IMG/VR virus record: IMGVR_UViG_3300042401_001556
Coordinates: 1 to 21,594 of that record
Length of the DNA stretch: 21,594 nucleotides
Direction: 5' to 3' (one strand)
Source: a virus
The notes under the pieces are model-generated. The model did no database searches. It was not told the DNA's origin and saw only the letters and a list, made by a program, of their open reading frames with translations. Positions 5,185-21,594 of this stretch are shown piece by piece. The position numbers and the translations under genes were made by a program. Each line of letters opens with the position of its first letter. The first letter of the stretch is position 1.

Positions 5185-6069
5185 ATGCCAAGCGGCACGG
5201 AGTTGGAGCGTATTGCCCGCCGGATCCTCACGGAGCTGGGCAACAACGTGGCAAAACCGTGGCTGGCGATTTACGACCGAAAAAAGGAAGCCGATCCGTT
5301 CACGGCTCCGATTGATATGGCCGCCCAATTTATTCCAGTGATTGAAGCATGGATCGACGAATCTGGTCGGTCCTTTCTGGTGTCACTCGATCAACAGGAT
5401 GCGGATCAATGGTTGGTTCGTGCACCAGAAGTGATTGAGGCCGCACGCAATGCGACTCTGGACCTCTGCCAGGAGACGATCGACCAATTCACTACCGATA
5501 CACTCCGCACTCTGGAAGGCATGCGGGCTGATATCGCAGCTTCCATTGAGGCTGGCGAGACGGCTGGAGAATTGACCAACCGAATCAGCACATGGATCAA
5601 GGATAACGCTCGATGGCGGGCACGGCGCATTGCAATCACCGAATCAGCACGCGCCTATAACACCGGCCTGACAAGTGCTGCTGAGGGGCTGGACTTTATC
5701 ACCGGTTGGGAACTGCTCCTTTCCGGTGACGCCTGCCCGATGTGTCAAATGATCTTCAGATTATGCCCGGTCATTCCAAAGGGCGGAACCTTTGGGACGA
5801 ACGGTAAGAACAAGACATACAAAGACCTTAAATTTCCACCATTTCACCCTGGTTGCCGTTGCAGTCTCTTGGAAGTCTTTGAAGACGAGATGCCCAAGAA
5901 TCTGAAGCCACCTGTCAGGCCGGGTGAGAACGGATACCTACAGCCTGCAGACATCGACTTTGCTGCTGCTGAAGAGGCTGGATATCAATCGGTTGCAGTT
6001 GGCAACGCGAAATCATTCACAAAAACGGGCCGGATATTGGAGGCTGATAATGATCACAAAATCGACTGA
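5185..6069 (+). CDS. MuF-like phage head morphogenesis protein
   Basis: A minor head protein of the Mu gpF / SPP1 gp7 type, which associates with the portal and aids head assembly or DNA ejection. An N-terminal helical region (residues about 1-140) precedes the diagnostic C-terminal domain: RRIAITESARAYNTG (about 148-161), DACPMC (182-187) and PPFHPGCRC (218-226), whose Cys/His residues likely bind zinc. ATG 5185 (294 aa) has a weak AGAGCAGG upstream; an in-frame TTG at 5149 and an ATG at 5086 overlapping the peptidase gene are alternatives, so the start is uncertain. The C-terminus overlaps the protease gene by 20 bases. The portal gene normally found just upstream is not here. Confidence 0.85.
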   Translation: MPSGTELERIARRILTELGNNVAKPWLAIYDRKKEADPFTAPIDMAAQFIPVIEAWIDESGRSFLVSLDQQDADQWLVRAPEVIEAARNATLDLCQETIDQFTTDTLRTLEGMRADIAASIEAGETAGELTNRISTWIKDNARWRARRIAITESARAYNTGLTSAAEGLDFITGWELLLSGDACPMCQMIFRLCPVIPKGGTFGTNGKNKTYKDLKFPPFHPGCRCSLLEVFEDEMPKNLKPPVRPGENGYLQPADIDFAAAEEAGYQSVAVGNAKSFTKTGRILEADNDHKID

Positions 6070-6685
6070 TTCCGGCATCACAAAAAGCGATACAGGCGGC
6101 TTTGTGGGCTATGCTGCCCGCTTTTTAAATATCGACCGACAAGGCGATATCATTTTGCCGGGCGCATTCCAGAAGTCAATTCAAGACTTCATGGATTCTG
6201 GCGGACTGGTCCTGTCTGACCACGAAAACAAAACATCCGCGGTGATCGGCACGCTGAATGATGCGACCGAAGACCGGTCCGGTTTAAAAGTGGATGTGAC
6301 CTTTTCAGCCACAAAAGCCGGTCAGGATATCCGCACTCTGCTCCGCGAAAAAGCGGTTCGCAAGATGTCGATTTCATTTCTGGCAAGACAACCAGAACGA
6401 TTGAGCAAAAAGCAGGTCTCAGACCTATGGGACCGGTACGGATACAAACCAAACGCGAGTCAAATCAGGCTCGCTGAAAAGGGTGCAAACCTGATCAAAG
6501 AAGTGTCGGAGATTATCGAAGTCTCAGTGGTGCCGATCCCGGCCAACGCTGACGCTTCGATTATTAGCGTGAAATCGCTATCCGACGACGAAACACCGAC
6601 CCCGGTGGTGGATGCCAAGCACCTGGTGAAATTGTTTCGCCAGGCGGAATTGGCTGATTCGATATTGACCGCCGCCAAGCGGTAA
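6050..6685 (+). CDS. HK97-family prohead protease (S78)
   Basis: A 211-residue serine protease that cleaves scaffold and capsid N-termini during head maturation. The S78 triad is visible: His58 in GLVLSDHENKTSAVIG, Ser107 in VRKMSISF, and Glu157 in EIIEVSVVPIPANADA. These match the H-S-E triad of HK97 gp4. The length is normal. ATG 6050 has TTGGAGG 7 bases upstream (6037-6043); the open frame extends further upstream inside the MuF gene but without a ribosome site. It ends 16 bases before the capsid gene, as expected for a protease-capsid pair. Confidence 0.92.
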   Translation: MITKSTDSGITKSDTGGFVGYAARFLNIDRQGDIILPGAFQKSIQDFMDSGGLVLSDHENKTSAVIGTLNDATEDRSGLKVDVTFSATKAGQDIRTLLREKAVRKMSISFLARQPERLSKKQVSDLWDRYGYKPNASQIRLAEKGANLIKEVSEIIEVSVVPIPANADASIISVKSLSDDETPTPVVDAKHLVKLFRQAELADSILTAAKR

Positions 6686-6701: not shown

Positions 6702-8129
6702 ATGAGTATTGCAAACGAAATCCGCTCTGCGGCATCCATTGCCGAAGACCGCATCGCACTCGCTTCCAGCGTGATTGCATTGCGTGATGAAATTTTGGCC
6801 GCTCCTGATGAGGTGCGTGCCGATAAAACCGCCGACCTGCAAGCCGCAAACGACCGGCTTGAGGCTTGCGACAGGGAATATTATCTGGTAAAGGCTGTTG
6901 AAAACGCCAACGCCATGCTCGAAAGCCTGTCGGCCAAGCCACAGCGCCCACAGCCAACCTACAAAGCGGCCACAATTGACCGTCGCAGTGGTCAGGTTCT
7001 TGACGGTGGCGACCTTGCCAGCCTGACAGACACTGAAGCCGTTTCGTCTCGCGACTACAGCAAAGCGTTTGAAGGGCTTCTTGAAGCCCGTGGGAACATC
7101 GACCGCGTGACAAGCCGCAATCATCGCGACATGCTCGAAAGATACGGCAAAGGTGGCGACAGGAACCTTGGATGGAATGAATTCTTTATTCCGTTCAGCA
7201 AGGCGATGACGCTGGCATCGTCCACAAACGGTTCCAATGCCGTGGCTCCTGACTTCCGTTTTGATTTGATCACGCAACGCTCGGTCACACCTAAAGCATT
7301 GCAACTCTGTCGAGTGATCACAACGAACGTGTCCAGCGTCACGTTCCCGAAGAATACCGACGCCAATACCGATGGCGGTTTGGTGGGTACAATCGGAACC
7401 AACAACCGGCCAACAAAAGGTGAAAGCCCAACAGCCACGGCGATCGACACCGGGCCATTTACACAGCTCACCATCACCGCTAAGACCGGCACGATGGTTC
7501 AGGATATTTCGGCTGACTTCTTTCAAGATGCGCCGGGAATGTCCAGCTACCTGCAACAAGAGTCGAGCAAATTGTTTGCGAACCGAATTGACAAAGAAGT
7601 CTTTTCGGCGACCACTCTTTCTGACTCGCTGGAAGCCATTCTGGCCAACACCGGGATCGGCACACAGCTTTCAGGCACATCAGCCAGCCTCGGTTCGACT
7701 GATGCAATCACCTATAACAATCTGGCTGACCTGTTCTTTTCTTTCAAAGAAAGTTACAGCAGCAATTTATCATGGGTCATGAACCGTGCCACACATGGCA
7801 AGCTCTACAAGGTGAAGGATTCCCAAGGAATTCCACTGCTTTCAGGCTTCCAGCAAGGCACGTTTGCGAATTCTCCGGGCTATCAAATGTTTGGAGTTCC
7901 CGCAAATTATGTTGAATATATGCCAGCCTCTGGCGTAGCCAATGCACGCTCGATTCTGATCGGTGATTTCCAAGAGTATTACTTGCTGGTTCGCCAAGGA
8001 TTCACCGTTATCATTGACGACCTGTCAAAGCAAGGTGATAACCTGATTCGGCTGAATTACAAGTACCGCATCGGCGGTGCCGTTCGTGATGCTCGTGCAT
8101 TCGCAAGCATCAAAGAAGCCGTTTCCTGA
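6702..8129 (+). CDS. Major capsid protein, HK97 fold
   Basis: A 475-residue coat protein. The N-terminal 90 or so residues are strongly helical and charged (IALASSVIALRDEILAAPDE, KTADLQAANDRLEACDREYY), consistent with a delta-domain scaffold cut off by the S78 protease. The capsid core follows from about residue 150: TAKTGTMVQDISADFFQDAP, SYLQQESSKLFANRIDKEVF, WVMNRATHGKLYKVKD, and a C-terminal P/A-domain block GDFQEYYLLVRQGFTVIIDD followed by IGGAVRDARAFASIKE. AAAGG lies 10 bases upstream of ATG. A strong terminator follows its stop, matching the need for high expression. Identification as HK97-type is secure; the cleavage site cannot be read from sequence alone. Confidence 0.93.
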   Translation: MSIANEIRSAASIAEDRIALASSVIALRDEILAAPDEVRADKTADLQAANDRLEACDREYYLVKAVENANAMLESLSAKPQRPQPTYKAATIDRRSGQVLDGGDLASLTDTEAVSSRDYSKAFEGLLEARGNIDRVTSRNHRDMLERYGKGGDRNLGWNEFFIPFSKAMTLASSTNGSNAVAPDFRFDLITQRSVTPKALQLCRVITTNVSSVTFPKNTDANTDGGLVGTIGTNNRPTKGESPTATAIDTGPFTQLTITAKTGTMVQDISADFFQDAPGMSSYLQQESSKLFANRIDKEVFSATTLSDSLEAILANTGIGTQLSGTSASLGSTDAITYNNLADLFFSFKESYSSNLSWVMNRATHGKLYKVKDSQGIPLLSGFQQGTFANSPGYQMFGVPANYVEYMPASGVANARSILIGDFQEYYLLVRQGFTVIIDDLSKQGDNLIRLNYKYRIGGAVRDARAFASIKEAVS

Positions 8130-17783: not shown

Positions 17784-17797
17784 CCCCCCCCCCCCCC
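17784..17797. repeat. C14 homopolymer (G14 on the minus strand)
   Basis: Fourteen consecutive C residues between the integrase stop (17824) and the leftward promoter. It stands out from the mixed sequence around it. Polymerase slippage would change its length readily; being non-coding, it could alter spacing or termination, or be a sequencing error-prone site. Confidence 0.85.
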
Positions 17798-17823: not shown

Positions 17824-19035
17824 TCATCCGAGTTTCTCCGCAACTTCAATTACAAGCTCCAAATCCTTCTCCGCATAGACTTGCGTAACATCCGCATGTT
17901 GATGCCCCAAAGCGACCTGGGCGGCATGCAGGCCTATCTCTGATCTGACTCGTGTGGCAAACGAGTGACGGATTCGGTTTGGCGACCACCTTGGCAAGCC
18001 AGCCGCTTCCGCAGCATCACCAACACGCTTCCCAAAGCTGGACGCTTTGTAGGCATCGCCAGCGATCTTAGCAGGCTTGGCAACGGTACGATTAGTCTGA
18101 GAAGGCTGAACTGGTGTCTTCCGGTTCGCTCGCAAAATTGCTCGCCTCTCCTCTTCAGCCTGGGCGGGTGAAAAGATCGGCACATCTGGTGGTCGATCAA
18201 TCCATTCGAGAAGCACTTCCTGCGCCTGCTTACCGATCCCAATATGTCGTTCGATGTCGCGATACTCTGTTTTGTGTTTGTTGGGCGAATAGATCCAGAC
18301 CGGCTTAGATCGGTCGATATCCTGCCAGGTGATCAGCACCACTTCACCTGGTCTCATGCCGGTGTGCCACATCAGCAGGACCATCGACCAAACCTGTCTG
18401 GAGACATGTGGTTTAATTGCAACAACATGCTCCCAGCAGACTGGCTTGACCCGCTCCGGCTCACGAGCTGCGGACCTTCGCTTTTTCAACTTCTCCAACG
18501 CCCTCAGAGCGTCCCAAGACGATGCGGGTATTCGCTCAGTGGCAACGCCCCACCGAAAGCACCTGACAACGTAGCGCTGATACTTGGTGATCACGCCACG
18601 TGTTAGAGGTGTGCCGGAGTTGCCCTTGAGGATCCACATATCTCTGACAGCAGTCATCTGAGGTGCTCGGAAGTCCTTTGCAGGGATGCCACCAAACAGA
18701 GCCACAACACCACGAAGCGCCAGTTCATGGTTGCGTGGTTCTGTGGATTCGGAGTCGTGCTGAGTTTTGACCCACTTTAAAAACCCGTCCACGAGTTCTT
18801 TGGTAGATACCAAACTATCCTTTTCAAGTTTGATTTTCCCAGTTGCAAAGAAGAGCGCCAGAGTTTGCTGGTAGGCGGCAAGGCTTTCAGGCGTGCCATG
18901 TTTGCCAAGGTAGACAGTCACATCACCCCAGCAAGTGCGAGCACTGCCGGTTTTCTTGTGTAACATGTAACTTGGTATGGAGTTGCGTTTGCGTCCCATG
19001 AGTTCAAAGAATTCGCTAGAATGGTAGTCTACCAT
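17824..19035 (-). CDS. int: Tyrosine integrase
   Basis: A 403-residue site-specific recombinase that would integrate the phage at the tRNA-Lys site next to it. The C-terminal catalytic domain shows Arg228 in HTGMRPGEV, Lys255 in NKHKTEYRD, Arg356 in PNRIRHSFATR, His378 in LGHQHADV and nucleophile Tyr387 in TQVYAEKD. The first position of the usual HxxR box is Asn353, a substitution I associate with planctomycete integrases. The N-terminal part (about 1-70) is basic and likely binds arm sites; a SAM-like core-binding domain follows (about 75-185). ATG 19035 has GAAGGAA 7 bases upstream and lies inside the palindrome ATGGTAG-T-CTACCAT, hinting at self-regulation. Confidence 0.92.
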   Translation of the reverse strand: MVDYHSSEFFELMGRKRNSIPSYMLHKKTGSARTCWGDVTVYLGKHGTPESLAAYQQTLALFFATGKIKLEKDSLVSTKELVDGFLKWVKTQHDSESTEPRNHELALRGVVALFGGIPAKDFRAPQMTAVRDMWILKGNSGTPLTRGVITKYQRYVVRCFRWGVATERIPASSWDALRALEKLKKRRSAAREPERVKPVCWEHVVAIKPHVSRQVWSMVLLMWHTGMRPGEVVLITWQDIDRSKPVWIYSPNKHKTEYRDIERHIGIGKQAQEVLLEWIDRPPDVPIFSPAQAEEERRAILRANRKTPVQPSQTNRTVAKPAKIAGDAYKASSFGKRVGDAAEAAGLPRWSPNRIRHSFATRVRSEIGLHAAQVALGHQHADVTQVYAEKDLELVIEVAEKLG

Positions 19036-19040
19036 TTTAT
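19021..19040. repeat. Arm-like site 1 and palindrome at the int start
   Basis: TCTACCATTTTAT (19028-19040) recurs exactly at 19196-19208. The same place holds ATGGTAG-T-CTACCAT (19021-19035), a perfect 7-bp inverted repeat covering the int start codon. Position beside the core fits an integrase arm site that also represses int. Confidence 0.6.
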
Positions 19041-19114
19041 TCCTTCTGTTTTCGGTTGGTTACCAAAGAGGCAGAGGGAATATAACATACTATTTTCAAA
19101 AGGCTTGGGAAAAA

Positions 19115-19156
19115 TGCCCCCTGATGGACTCGAACCATCAACCCGCTGATTAAGAG
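19115..19156 (-). other. attP core: 3' half of a tRNA-Lys(CTT) gene
   Basis: On the minus strand the 42 bases read from the anticodon loop CTCTTAA (anticodon CTT at 19154-19152) through TCAGC, GGGTT, the T arm GATGG-TTCGAGT-CCATC and the acceptor end AGGGGGC plus A. This is the exact layout of the 3' half of tRNA-Lys. The 5' half is missing: the bases before the loop (GCGATT) do not pair with TCAGC and no matching acceptor strand lies upstream. A phage attP carrying such a fragment restores the tRNA on integration. It lies 80 bases from the int start, with phage genes on both sides. Confidence 0.8.
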
Positions 19157-19195
19157 AATCGCGAGTGGCCTATTTTAAGGCATTCAGGACTGATT

Positions 19196-19208
19196 TCTAC
19201 CATTTTAT
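19196..19208. repeat. Arm-like site 2
   Basis: An exact second copy of TCTACCATTTTAT, 40 bases beyond the attP core on the side opposite int. Both copies have the same orientation. A partial repeat pair (CTATTTTCAAAAGGC 19090-19104 and CTATTTTAAGGC 19170-19181) also flanks the core. Flanking direct repeats fit integrase or IHF-like arm binding. Confidence 0.55.
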
Positions 19209-19213
19209 CGGAT

Positions 19214-19230
19214 CACCTGCCGAAGCGGTG
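19214..19230 (-). other. UUCG-loop hairpin at 3' end of leftward gene
   Basis: On the minus strand CACCGC-TTCG-GC(A)GGTG forms a short stem with a stable UUCG tetraloop and one bulged A, directly after the stop of the 19498 gene. No T run follows, so it is a weak terminator or an mRNA 3' end stabiliser. Confidence 0.4.
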
Positions 19231-19231
19231 C

Positions 19232-19498
19232 TTAGTTTGCAGAGGCAGTCTTTACGAACTTCTTGAGGGCAGCAGAGTTGTTTTCAATCTCTTCTGCCCA
19301 AGTCTCTTTACCTTTGGCCCAGAAACCTGCGATAAGCCCTTGAAGGAATTCGCGTTCGGTGAACGTCATTCCTGATGGCTTTAGCTCAGACATCTCTGCC
19401 CAGCCAACAACCTGCTTCAATGCACCATGAATTTGCTCTGGTGCAGCAAATCCGATCTTGCGTTGTTCTGAGGTTATCTTGGCATTAGCAACTCTCAT
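19232..19498 (-). CDS. Small leftward regulator candidate, unknown
   Basis: An 88-residue protein transcribed divergently from the ribbon-helix-helix gene. I prefer ATG 19498 (AGAAGG 6-7 bases upstream) over an in-frame ATG at 19540 that falls in the -10 region of its own promoter. Mostly helical (SEQRKIGFAAPEQIHGALKQ, FTEREFLQGLIAGFWAKGKE, SAALKKFVKTASAN); no recognised DNA-binding motif. Gene order suggests a role in the lysis-lysogeny decision, as a repressor, anti-repressor or excision factor. Its leader (CAACCGAAAGAAGG) closely resembles that of int (CAACCGAAAACAGAAGG). Confidence 0.55.
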   Translation of the reverse strand: MRVANAKITSEQRKIGFAAPEQIHGALKQVVGWAEMSELKPSGMTFTEREFLQGLIAGFWAKGKETWAEEIENNSAALKKFVKTASAN

Positions 19499-19538
19499 AT
19501 AGTTACCTTCTTTCGGTTGCGGCAACATTGCCACATTC

Positions 19539-19567
19539 ATACTAGTGCATTAGGTAACACAAATCAA
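19539..19567 (-). promoter_or_regulatory. Leftward switch promoter
   Basis: On the minus strand: TTGATT (-35, 19567-19562), a 17-base spacer and TAGTAT (-10, 19544-19539). The spacer and -10 contain GTTACC and ACTAGT, the same motifs found in the rightward promoter. Expected start is near 19532, so the mRNA leads into the ATG at 19498. Confidence 0.55.
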
Positions 19568-19664: not shown

Positions 19665-19856
19665 ATGAGCAAGAAAAAACGCCTTGTGGTCAACGTCTCG
19701 GAAAAGGTTAGCGAGGCAATCTGGAAGATGCACTGCGACCAGAAGATCTCTCAATCAAGAATTGTCGAACGGATTCTGGAATCAAATCTTGAGGTTATTG
19801 GCGATCCGGTAACGGTTTCGGGAAGTGAAAGGTTCGCCATGGTGAACCAGTCATGA
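19665..19856 (+). CDS. Ribbon-helix-helix (Arc/CopG-type) regulator
   Basis: A 63-residue transcription regulator. The N-terminal segment KKKRLVVNVSEKVSEAIWKM then SQSRIVERILESNLEVIG has the beta-strand, helix, turn, helix pattern of RHH proteins: alternating strand residues RLVVNV contact DNA, and the SQSRIVERIL helix forms the dimer. AAGGA lies about 6 bases upstream of ATG 19665. The promoter just before it carries repeated GGTAACTAGT motifs, so it probably represses itself and the divergent leftward gene. It overlaps the next gene by four bases (ATGA). First gene of the rightward early/replication block. Confidence 0.75.
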   Translation: MSKKKRLVVNVSEKVSEAIWKMHCDQKISQSRIVERILESNLEVIGDPVTVSGSERFAMVNQS

Positions 19857-20000: not shown

Positions 20001-21594
20001 ATGTCGTGGCCAGATTATTTTGACGCCTGCGCTCGCAACGATTTGTTTGCAGCGTTCGAGGCGCTCGTTTCTATTGGCTTGCTTCCAGTCGTCAACGGTG
20101 AAGACAAGCACGGCAAGATTAAACGCCCGATGGCCAACAAGGATGAGCCATGGCAGCATGTTACAACCGATCAGTGGCGACAACGATTGATCGGATATCT
20201 TCAGAATGGAGTACCTGTCGGGATTGGGTGCAAGCCTGTTGGTCATGTGGTGTTTGACATCGACCCATACAACAAGGACACCAAGTTTCTTCCTGATGCT
20301 TGGAAGGAGTCCGCCCAACTTCTGTTTGGGTCTGACGACTGGCCAGAAACTCTTATCGTCAAAACGGAGGGTGGTTGCCATGTCTGGTTTCAGGTGACCG
20401 ATTCCATCCTTCAGGCATGGGGGCGCTTAGGCAAAAAATCCATCGAACTTCCATCTAAAGGTAAGATTGAAATCTTTGTTGGCCTGGCTGACGCTGGGAG
20501 TCAGGTGGCCTGTGCTCCGAGCGATGGTAAACGGGTTTCAATTCCGATGGCACCAATTGCCCTGCCTGAATCCGCAGAGCAGGCGATCCTACAGGCAATC
20601 ACTCGACCCGAGAAACCAAAGGTCGATTTTCCTCCTGTGGTCGGAAATGTTTCCAGTGATTTTGAGTGGGCCAAAATGGTGCTCGCTAAAGGATATCTGG
20701 ACACTCAACTTGGAGACTACGACAAATGGCTTGCGGTAGGCATGGCACTCACTCACAAGTTCGGTGAGGACGGGGCTGAACTCTGGGAAGAATGGTCAGC
20801 TCGTCATGAAAAGCATATTGATGGAGAGTGTTCCATCAAAGTGAGGTCCTTCAAACGAACCGATGGCGATAAGCAAATCAGGTTTGGGAGTTTGATCCAG
20901 ATCGCCAGGGCCAACGGAGCAGCTCCGCCACAACTATCAACCGAGCCTTTACCAGTGGAATTCTTTGAAGGGATTGGAGAAGCGGCCAACACGGCTGACA
21001 TTCGTAGTCTGATGAAGGATCGTGAATGGCTCTGGGGAAACAAGGAACAGAATGTCGGCTGGTTTATCCAGAGAGGTCTTCACCTGGTCGAGGGCAAAGA
21101 AGGGACTGGCAAGACGCGATGGATCATGGATCTTGCTCGCAGATGGTCTCTTGATATGAGATGGCCAGACGGATCCAAAACAGAAATGGACCCTGACGCA
21201 AAAGTTCTGTTTGTGGCTTCTGATTCGCACTGGGATCAGATCGCCATGACTGCTGAGGCGTTTGGAATGCCTGACGAAAACGTGATCTTTACAGGTCCGC
21301 AAAACGACCCTTACAACTTCACCAATATTGATGACCCATCAACACTGGCCATGATCCGCCATTGGTGCACCAGGTACAAGGTCGGCATGGTGGTGATAGA
21401 TACTCTCATGGCCGCATCTTCGCGACCGTTAGTCGATCCACAGGAAGTTGCACAGATCGCCAAACCCCTTCGTGAACTGGCCAGAGATTTGAATGTTGTG
21501 GTAGTCATGATCGGACACCTGAACAGCCAGGGCGAAACTTGGGGACGTGCCATGGGGCGGACTTGCGATCACGTTATCAGAATGGAAGCCGATG
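20001..21594 (+). CDS. Primase-polymerase / helicase fusion (3' partial)
   Basis: At least 531 residues; the frame runs open off the window end. The N-terminal prim-pol (archaeo-eukaryotic primase) domain shows the acidic pair DID at 86-88 (VVFDIDPYN), GGCHVWF at 124-130 with His127, and the KGKIEIFVGLADAGSQ strand with PS at 173-174. A PriCT-2-like helical linker (about 220-307: KWLAVGMALTHKFGEDGAEL, LWEEWSARHEK) follows. The C-terminal RecA/RepA-type ATPase has Walker A GKEGTGKT (365-372) and a Walker B-like VGMVVIDT (461-468, Asp467), then VVVVMIGHLNSQGETWGRA. It likely primes and unwinds DNA at the phage origin. AAAGG lies 8 bases upstream of ATG 20001. Confidence 0.9.
   Translation, partial: MSWPDYFDACARNDLFAAFEALVSIGLLPVVNGEDKHGKIKRPMANKDEPWQHVTTDQWRQRLIGYLQNGVPVGIGCKPVGHVVFDIDPYNKDTKFLPDAWKESAQLLFGSDDWPETLIVKTEGGCHVWFQVTDSILQAWGRLGKKSIELPSKGKIEIFVGLADAGSQVACAPSDGKRVSIPMAPIALPESAEQAILQAITRPEKPKVDFPPVVGNVSSDFEWAKMVLAKGYLDTQLGDYDKWLAVGMALTHKFGEDGAELWEEWSARHEKHIDGECSIKVRSFKRTDGDKQIRFGSLIQIARANGAAPPQLSTEPLPVEFFEGIGEAANTADIRSLMKDREWLWGNKEQNVGWFIQRGLHLVEGKEGTGKTRWIMDLARRWSLDMRWPDGSKTEMDPDAKVLFVASDSHWDQIAMTAEAFGMPDENVIFTGPQNDPYNFTNIDDPSTLAMIRHWCTRYKVGMVVIDTLMAASSRPLVDPQEVAQIAKPLRELARDLNVVVVMIGHLNSQGETWGRAMGRTCDHVIRMEAD

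Follow-up and report, generated by a model that had tools for sequence, protein, structure and literature searches.

The attP site of an uncultured temperate phage: a tRNA-Lys(CTT) core, most likely carried on free phage DNA

The window, i.e. the whole stretch of DNA analysed here (21,594 nucleotides of virus record IMGVR_UViG_3300042401_001556), contains the 3′ half of a tRNA-Lys(CTT) gene next to an integrase gene and enclosed by phage genes. This raises the question of whether the DNA stems from a free phage genome or from a prophage. The best explanation is that the site is the attP of a temperate tailed phage of ∼33–36 kb from a freshwater planctomycete, and that the DNA is most likely free (circular or concatemeric) and not integrated. 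The parts of the site are the following.

19113..19156, minus strand: attP core, 3′ part of tRNA-Lys(CTT), identical with host tRNA genes in contigs L010, L011 and L012
19150..19156, minus strand: anticodon loop CTCTTAA, probable 7-nt crossover overlap; phage–host identity starts at this base
19157..19202, minus strand: P′ arm (primase side), conserved block with the half-site TGGTAGAAATC at its outer end
19036..19112, minus strand: P arm (integrase side) with the AAAATAGTATGTTATATTCC block, conserved between relatives
19028..19040, minus strand: 13-nt repeat ATAAAATGGTAGA, P-arm copy
19196..19208, minus strand: 13-nt repeat ATAAAATGGTAGA, P′-arm copy
19020..19036, no strand assigned: dyad AATGGTAGACTACCATT, centred 86.5 nt past the tRNA end and overlapping the first annotated integrase start codon

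The minus strand of 19115–19156 reads CTCTTAATCAGCGGGTTGATGGTTCGAGTCCATCAGGGGGCA and comprises the anticodon loop with CTT, the 3′ anticodon stem, the variable loop, the T arm, the 3′ acceptor strand and the discriminator base. Three genome contigs have a complete tRNA-Lys(CTT) of which positions 32–73 are identical to these 42 nt. Since phage–host identity continues for 2 nt (TT), the shared core is 19113–19156, or 44 nt from the first anticodon-loop base to 2 nt beyond the discriminator base at the tRNA end. An exact 42-nt match to a host tRNA is far too long to be explained by chance. A sequence-only reading had placed the tRNA half here, on the minus strand beside the integrase gene and with its 5′ half missing, and both the sequence and ARAGORN agree. 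According to ARAGORN, the window has no complete tRNA; the 5′ half is absent from it, and the 5′ flank, ...CCTTAAAATAGGCCACTCGCGATT, is unlike the host 5′ half. The core is flanked by a 13-nt direct repeat, TCTACCATTTTAT, at 19028–19040 and 19196–19208. None of 300 shuffles gave a 12-mer common to both arms, as the window has, and the repeats are putative integrase arm sites.

The gene neighbourhood is that of a phage.

6702..8129, plus strand: major capsid protein, HK97 type (PF05065, 1.2e-32), among the virion genes left of the integrase
17824..19035, minus strand: tyrosine integrase, 403 aa (PF00589, 4.6e-18; phrog_1, 1.4e-27)
19232..19540, minus strand: 102-aa open reading frame adjoining attP, no family match
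19665..19856, plus strand: 63-aa open reading frame, by eye possibly a ribbon-helix-helix regulator
20001..21593, plus strand: primase/helicase with Prim-Pol, PriCT-2 and AAA_25, cut by the window end

The core sits between the integrase and primase genes, with the integrase immediately downstream. As had been read from the sequence, virion genes (capsid, protease, head-tail connector, tail and tail fibre) lie beyond the integrase on one side, and two small open reading frames and the PriCT-2/AAA primase-helicase on the other. The signs that would speak for integration were looked for in the window: it has no tRNA 5′ half, and no host gene is recognised on either side of attP. By eye, the integrase translation has the R, K, HxxR, GH and Y motifs. 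An alternative start is at 18999 (residue 13), and the alignment with most relatives begins at residues 12–20. The 102-aa reading frame might, as a guess, encode a directionality factor or a regulator. An INPHARED search with the integrase gave one match, at 27%, and the capsid reached at most about 31% among the matches listed; thus the phage has no close cultured relative. A run of 14 C on the plus strand (17784–17797) follows closely on the 3′ end of the integrase gene and is possibly a phase-variable or assembly-prone tract.

A collection-wide scan for the core pattern, defined as the 3′ 37 nt of the tRNA half, led to three genome contigs, each with a complete tRNA-Lys(CTT) in which the full 42 nt are intact; 3 of the 45 genomes of the host family carry the core. 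The earlier proposals that the host attB is the tRNA-Lys(CTT) gene, and that candidate hosts should be searched for a full gene with the exact 3′ 42 bases, are borne out by these contigs. L010 and L012 are empty attB sites. L011 is an occupied site, attL, in the order host genes gap, pgk, rpe and accD, tRNA-Thr, complete tRNA-Lys(CTT), ATTTTTCACAAACC...GAAAACAGAAGGAATAAAATGG (the phage P arm) and integrase. The P arm is thus directly downstream of a complete tRNA in this host MAG, and in the integrated state the tRNA beside the integrase is complete, unlike in the window. The L011 integrase is 90% identical to that of the window across the 323 residues that precede the contig end. Over 4077 nt, L011 matches L012 with 95.5% identity, up to base 5951, which is 2 nt past the tRNA, and identity stops exactly at the end of the shared core. 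This pair is attL versus attB. A search for attR in the attL-bearing MAG matched only the attL core.

In the predicted mechanism, the integrase would recombine the CTCTTAA of attP and the identical heptamer of the host tRNA-Lys(CTT) gene. The 3′ half brought in by the phage would restore the tRNA, with the integrase gene now after it (attL), and the host's own 3′ half would be moved to the far end (attR). The suggestion that crossover occurs near the anticodon loop holds in that the core begins at this loop; the exact 7 nt are the probable overlap. The host loop CTCTTAA is flanked by the inverted pair GCTGA/TCAGC, a candidate for the core-type integrase sites.

The assignment to a planctomycete host rests on the MAG label and on the large genomes in the family. 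The three MAGs are labelled Candidatus Kuenenia stuttgartiensis, and they look mislabelled. A search of four genomes of the host genus did not reveal hydrazine synthase alpha (PF18582), with an uninformative control, and genomes of the family reach 10.9 Mb; the species label is distrusted for both reasons. The set of attB, attL and attP links an uncultured lake phage group to a host genus, which is stronger than a host prediction from sequence composition, and the ratio of attP to attL reads offers a ready test for lysogeny in situ.

Is the window itself, then, from free DNA? A search of IMG/VR with the integrase found eight relatives, all with the core and both arms. The contigs are circular permutations of one another, and the break points differ, none of them being at att: the breaks of G007 and G004 fall in the replication part and those of G005 and G008 in the virion part, the last two contigs being continuous from the primase round to the tail genes. 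G008 has an exact end repeat of 127 bp, the ends of G005 overlap by 176 bp (97%, five mismatches), and those of G007 overlap imperfectly. Permuted contigs together with these repeats and overlaps give a circle of ∼33–36 kb with attP inside, of which the window covers 21.6 kb. The other half, as present in G008, encodes a terminase, a portal, RusA, a thymidylate synthase, a Gp2.5-like SSB and a ParB-like protein. The last of these is encoded in the replication part, where a GHKL-ATPase-domain protein follows it (L027, 9831–12118). End repeats were not found in the window record; since this record is a 21.6-kb fragment with open ends, the free state of the window is deduced from the relatives.

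The arms are conserved to different extents. The 46 nt of the P′ arm are identical in all relatives except G007, the most distant. G004 keeps these 46 nt, and its DNA beyond them is different. The gene adjoining the P′ arm (19203–19540 in the window) is swapped in G003 and G004 (L031, L021). Replacement of this gene in two relatives with retention of the P′ arm marks att as a module boundary.

A survey of genomes from the host's class, covering 112 related integrases, puts attP anatomy in perspective; all of these integrases but the L011 copy are about 28–44% identical to that of the window. A complete tRNA precedes the integrase on the same strand in 86, its end 50–146 nt (median 79.5) before the codon equivalent to window codon 1, and 25 anticodon types are represented. 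Among the remaining 26, one integrase is behind a 5′ tRNA fragment and 20, about 18% of the 112, have only a 3′ fragment in front. Tandem integration was verified in three of these 20. In each, the 3′ tRNA half and a second integrase of the same clade are preceded, 14–37 kb upstream, by a complete tRNA of that type that has an integrase of its own.

G100, C1:7745435 and 7782373: tRNA-Asn, 37 kb apart
G179, C1:3081346 and 3095243: tRNA-Ala, 14 kb apart
G217, C2:316582 and 337900: tRNA-Lys(CTT), 21 kb apart

For eight integrated elements, the tRNA fragment displaced to the far end (attR side) was located, 8–54 kb away. By BLAST, these fragments start at tRNA positions 27–33 and end 1–11 nt past the tRNA. 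The window core starts at position 32; the site is of the anticodon-loop subsite.

It follows from the survey that an interior attP-like site alone is no proof of a free phage. With about 18% of the clade's chromosomal integrases behind a tRNA half, the sequence-only reading was right to favour a free genome, but its argument from the interior tRNA half was insufficient; circular closure of the relatives is the stronger evidence. The same reading had named two tandem prophages in one tRNA as the alternative. The window would then be the junction between two prophages in one tRNA-Lys(CTT), and its site a hybrid of P′ from one and P from the other, again with phage genes on either side. Such arrays are real and recurrent in this integrase clade, one of the three verified being in tRNA-Lys(CTT) itself, and 20 of the 112 related integrases have only a 3′ tRNA fragment in front, so that attP anatomy by itself leaves room for a tandem. 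However, both core flanks lie on one circular map in G005, G007 and G008, contigs that close or nearly close with no break at att, and none of nine virus contigs, the window included, has a host junction at the core. We therefore consider a tandem unlikely, and the free state the better reading.

Circular contigs would also be expected of a phage-plasmid or other non-integrating lineage, the genome being kept as a plasmid and attP being a relic, and the ParB-like protein of G008 (phrog_1033, 1.4e-12) would fit such a life style. Yet ParB is unconfirmed by Pfam and no ParA was found among the open reading frames searched. The integrase frame is intact, the P′ arm and the core are conserved, and an integrated relative exists (L011), which makes a plasmid lineage more doubtful still than a tandem. 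As for an assembly chimera or a chance tRNA-like sequence, nothing was found in its favour. The order P′-core-P recurs in eight independent records, and 42 nt of the core match host tRNAs exactly; the relatives refute this idea, and its probability is negligible.

The dyad in the P arm is the part of the finding that may be new; no description of a dyad at a fixed position was found in the literature searched, the coverage of which is incomplete. Its symmetry is kept despite changed letters in G007 (AATGGTAAGTTACCATT) and in L011. A dyad with arms of 6 or more lies 30–130 nt from the tRNA end in 79 of the 86 tRNA-anchored elements (loci L033–L191), versus 13% of shuffles. Raising the minimum arm length to 8 leaves 52 of 86, versus 1.1% of shuffles and 3 of 86 control stretches taken upstream. 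Seventy-four of the 86 integrated elements have the dyad within 60–112 nt of the tRNA end. The centres are at 83–88 nt in 64 elements, with minor groups at 70–74 and 93–96 that are perhaps one helical turn off, although these are too few to prove it. Position is fixed relative to the tRNA, not to the integrase start, and the letters vary by element, e.g. GGTAGNCTACC, GTGGAATNATTCCAC, AAAACGGTANNTACCGTTTT and GGGGAATCCCC. An element's own dyad recurs in the P′ arm in five of the eight elements with a known far end (0–2 of 300 shuffles); the P′ copy in the window is a half-site only, within the 13-nt direct repeat.

Dyad similarity tracks the identity of the integrase N-terminus (partial r 0.34; permutations at most 0.12), and it does not track the core-binding or the catalytic region (0.03 and 0.08). 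It should be pointed out that a control stretch of the P arm likewise follows the N-terminus (0.19), and linkage therefore accounts for part of the dyad correlation. The dyad is probably an integrase arm-type site. With moderate confidence, we propose that a widespread class of integrases in planctomycete genomes uses a dyad-symmetric arm site within the P arm. Its centre would lie ∼85.5 nt beyond the tRNA end, and its letters would vary by element together with the integrase N-terminal domain, the symmetry and spacing being fixed. This would constitute a fast-evolving, element-specific recognition code for integration. If the dyad is indeed an arm site, these elements represent a large natural data set on DNA reading by integrase N-terminal domains. 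An RNA hairpin or terminator is disfavoured: the arms are 0–2 nt apart in 59 of 74 elements, no T run follows the dyad in the P arms inspected, and position is tied to the tRNA, not to the integrase start.

The window attP is of a known and ordinary kind, for which attB and attL have now been located. Islander lists 2083 islands with an anticodon-centred site, termed subsite A (PMC4383910). As in these, the core starts from the anticodon loop, the element carries the 3′ tRNA part, the integrase is adjacent and the tRNA is restored. Unlike them, the window has an uncultured planctomycete as host and a P-arm dyad at a fixed distance. The cluster K mycobacteriophages CrimD and Pixie are likewise temperate with attP 5′ of the integrase gene, and the predicted attB of Pixie overlaps a tRNA-Lys gene (PMC3203893). 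Arm sites in cluster K drift together with the integrase N-terminus, and the arm-type repeats resemble the window in being on both sides, some inverted, and in differing among relatives (PMC3203893). CrimD-type sites are pairs of 11-bp repeats, however, whereas the window has one symmetric dyad with fixed spacing from the tRNA. Arm sites in attP before the integrase gene are also found in ICEMlSymR7A, which uses IntS, and its arm consensus TGKTGGTATC has GGTA in common with the window motif (PMC11963761). In contrast to the window phage, ICEMlSymR7A is an integrative and conjugative element, with five arm sites in a 283-bp attP (PMC11963761).

Another phage contig, L053, has a tRNA-Lys(CTT)-like half, from anticodon loop to CCA, at 6183–6230 near its own integrase gene. 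It was rejected as a relative, as it shares only the anticodon-loop pattern ATTCTCTTAATCAGCGGG and the core and integrase are different. It appears to represent an independent use of the same type of site.
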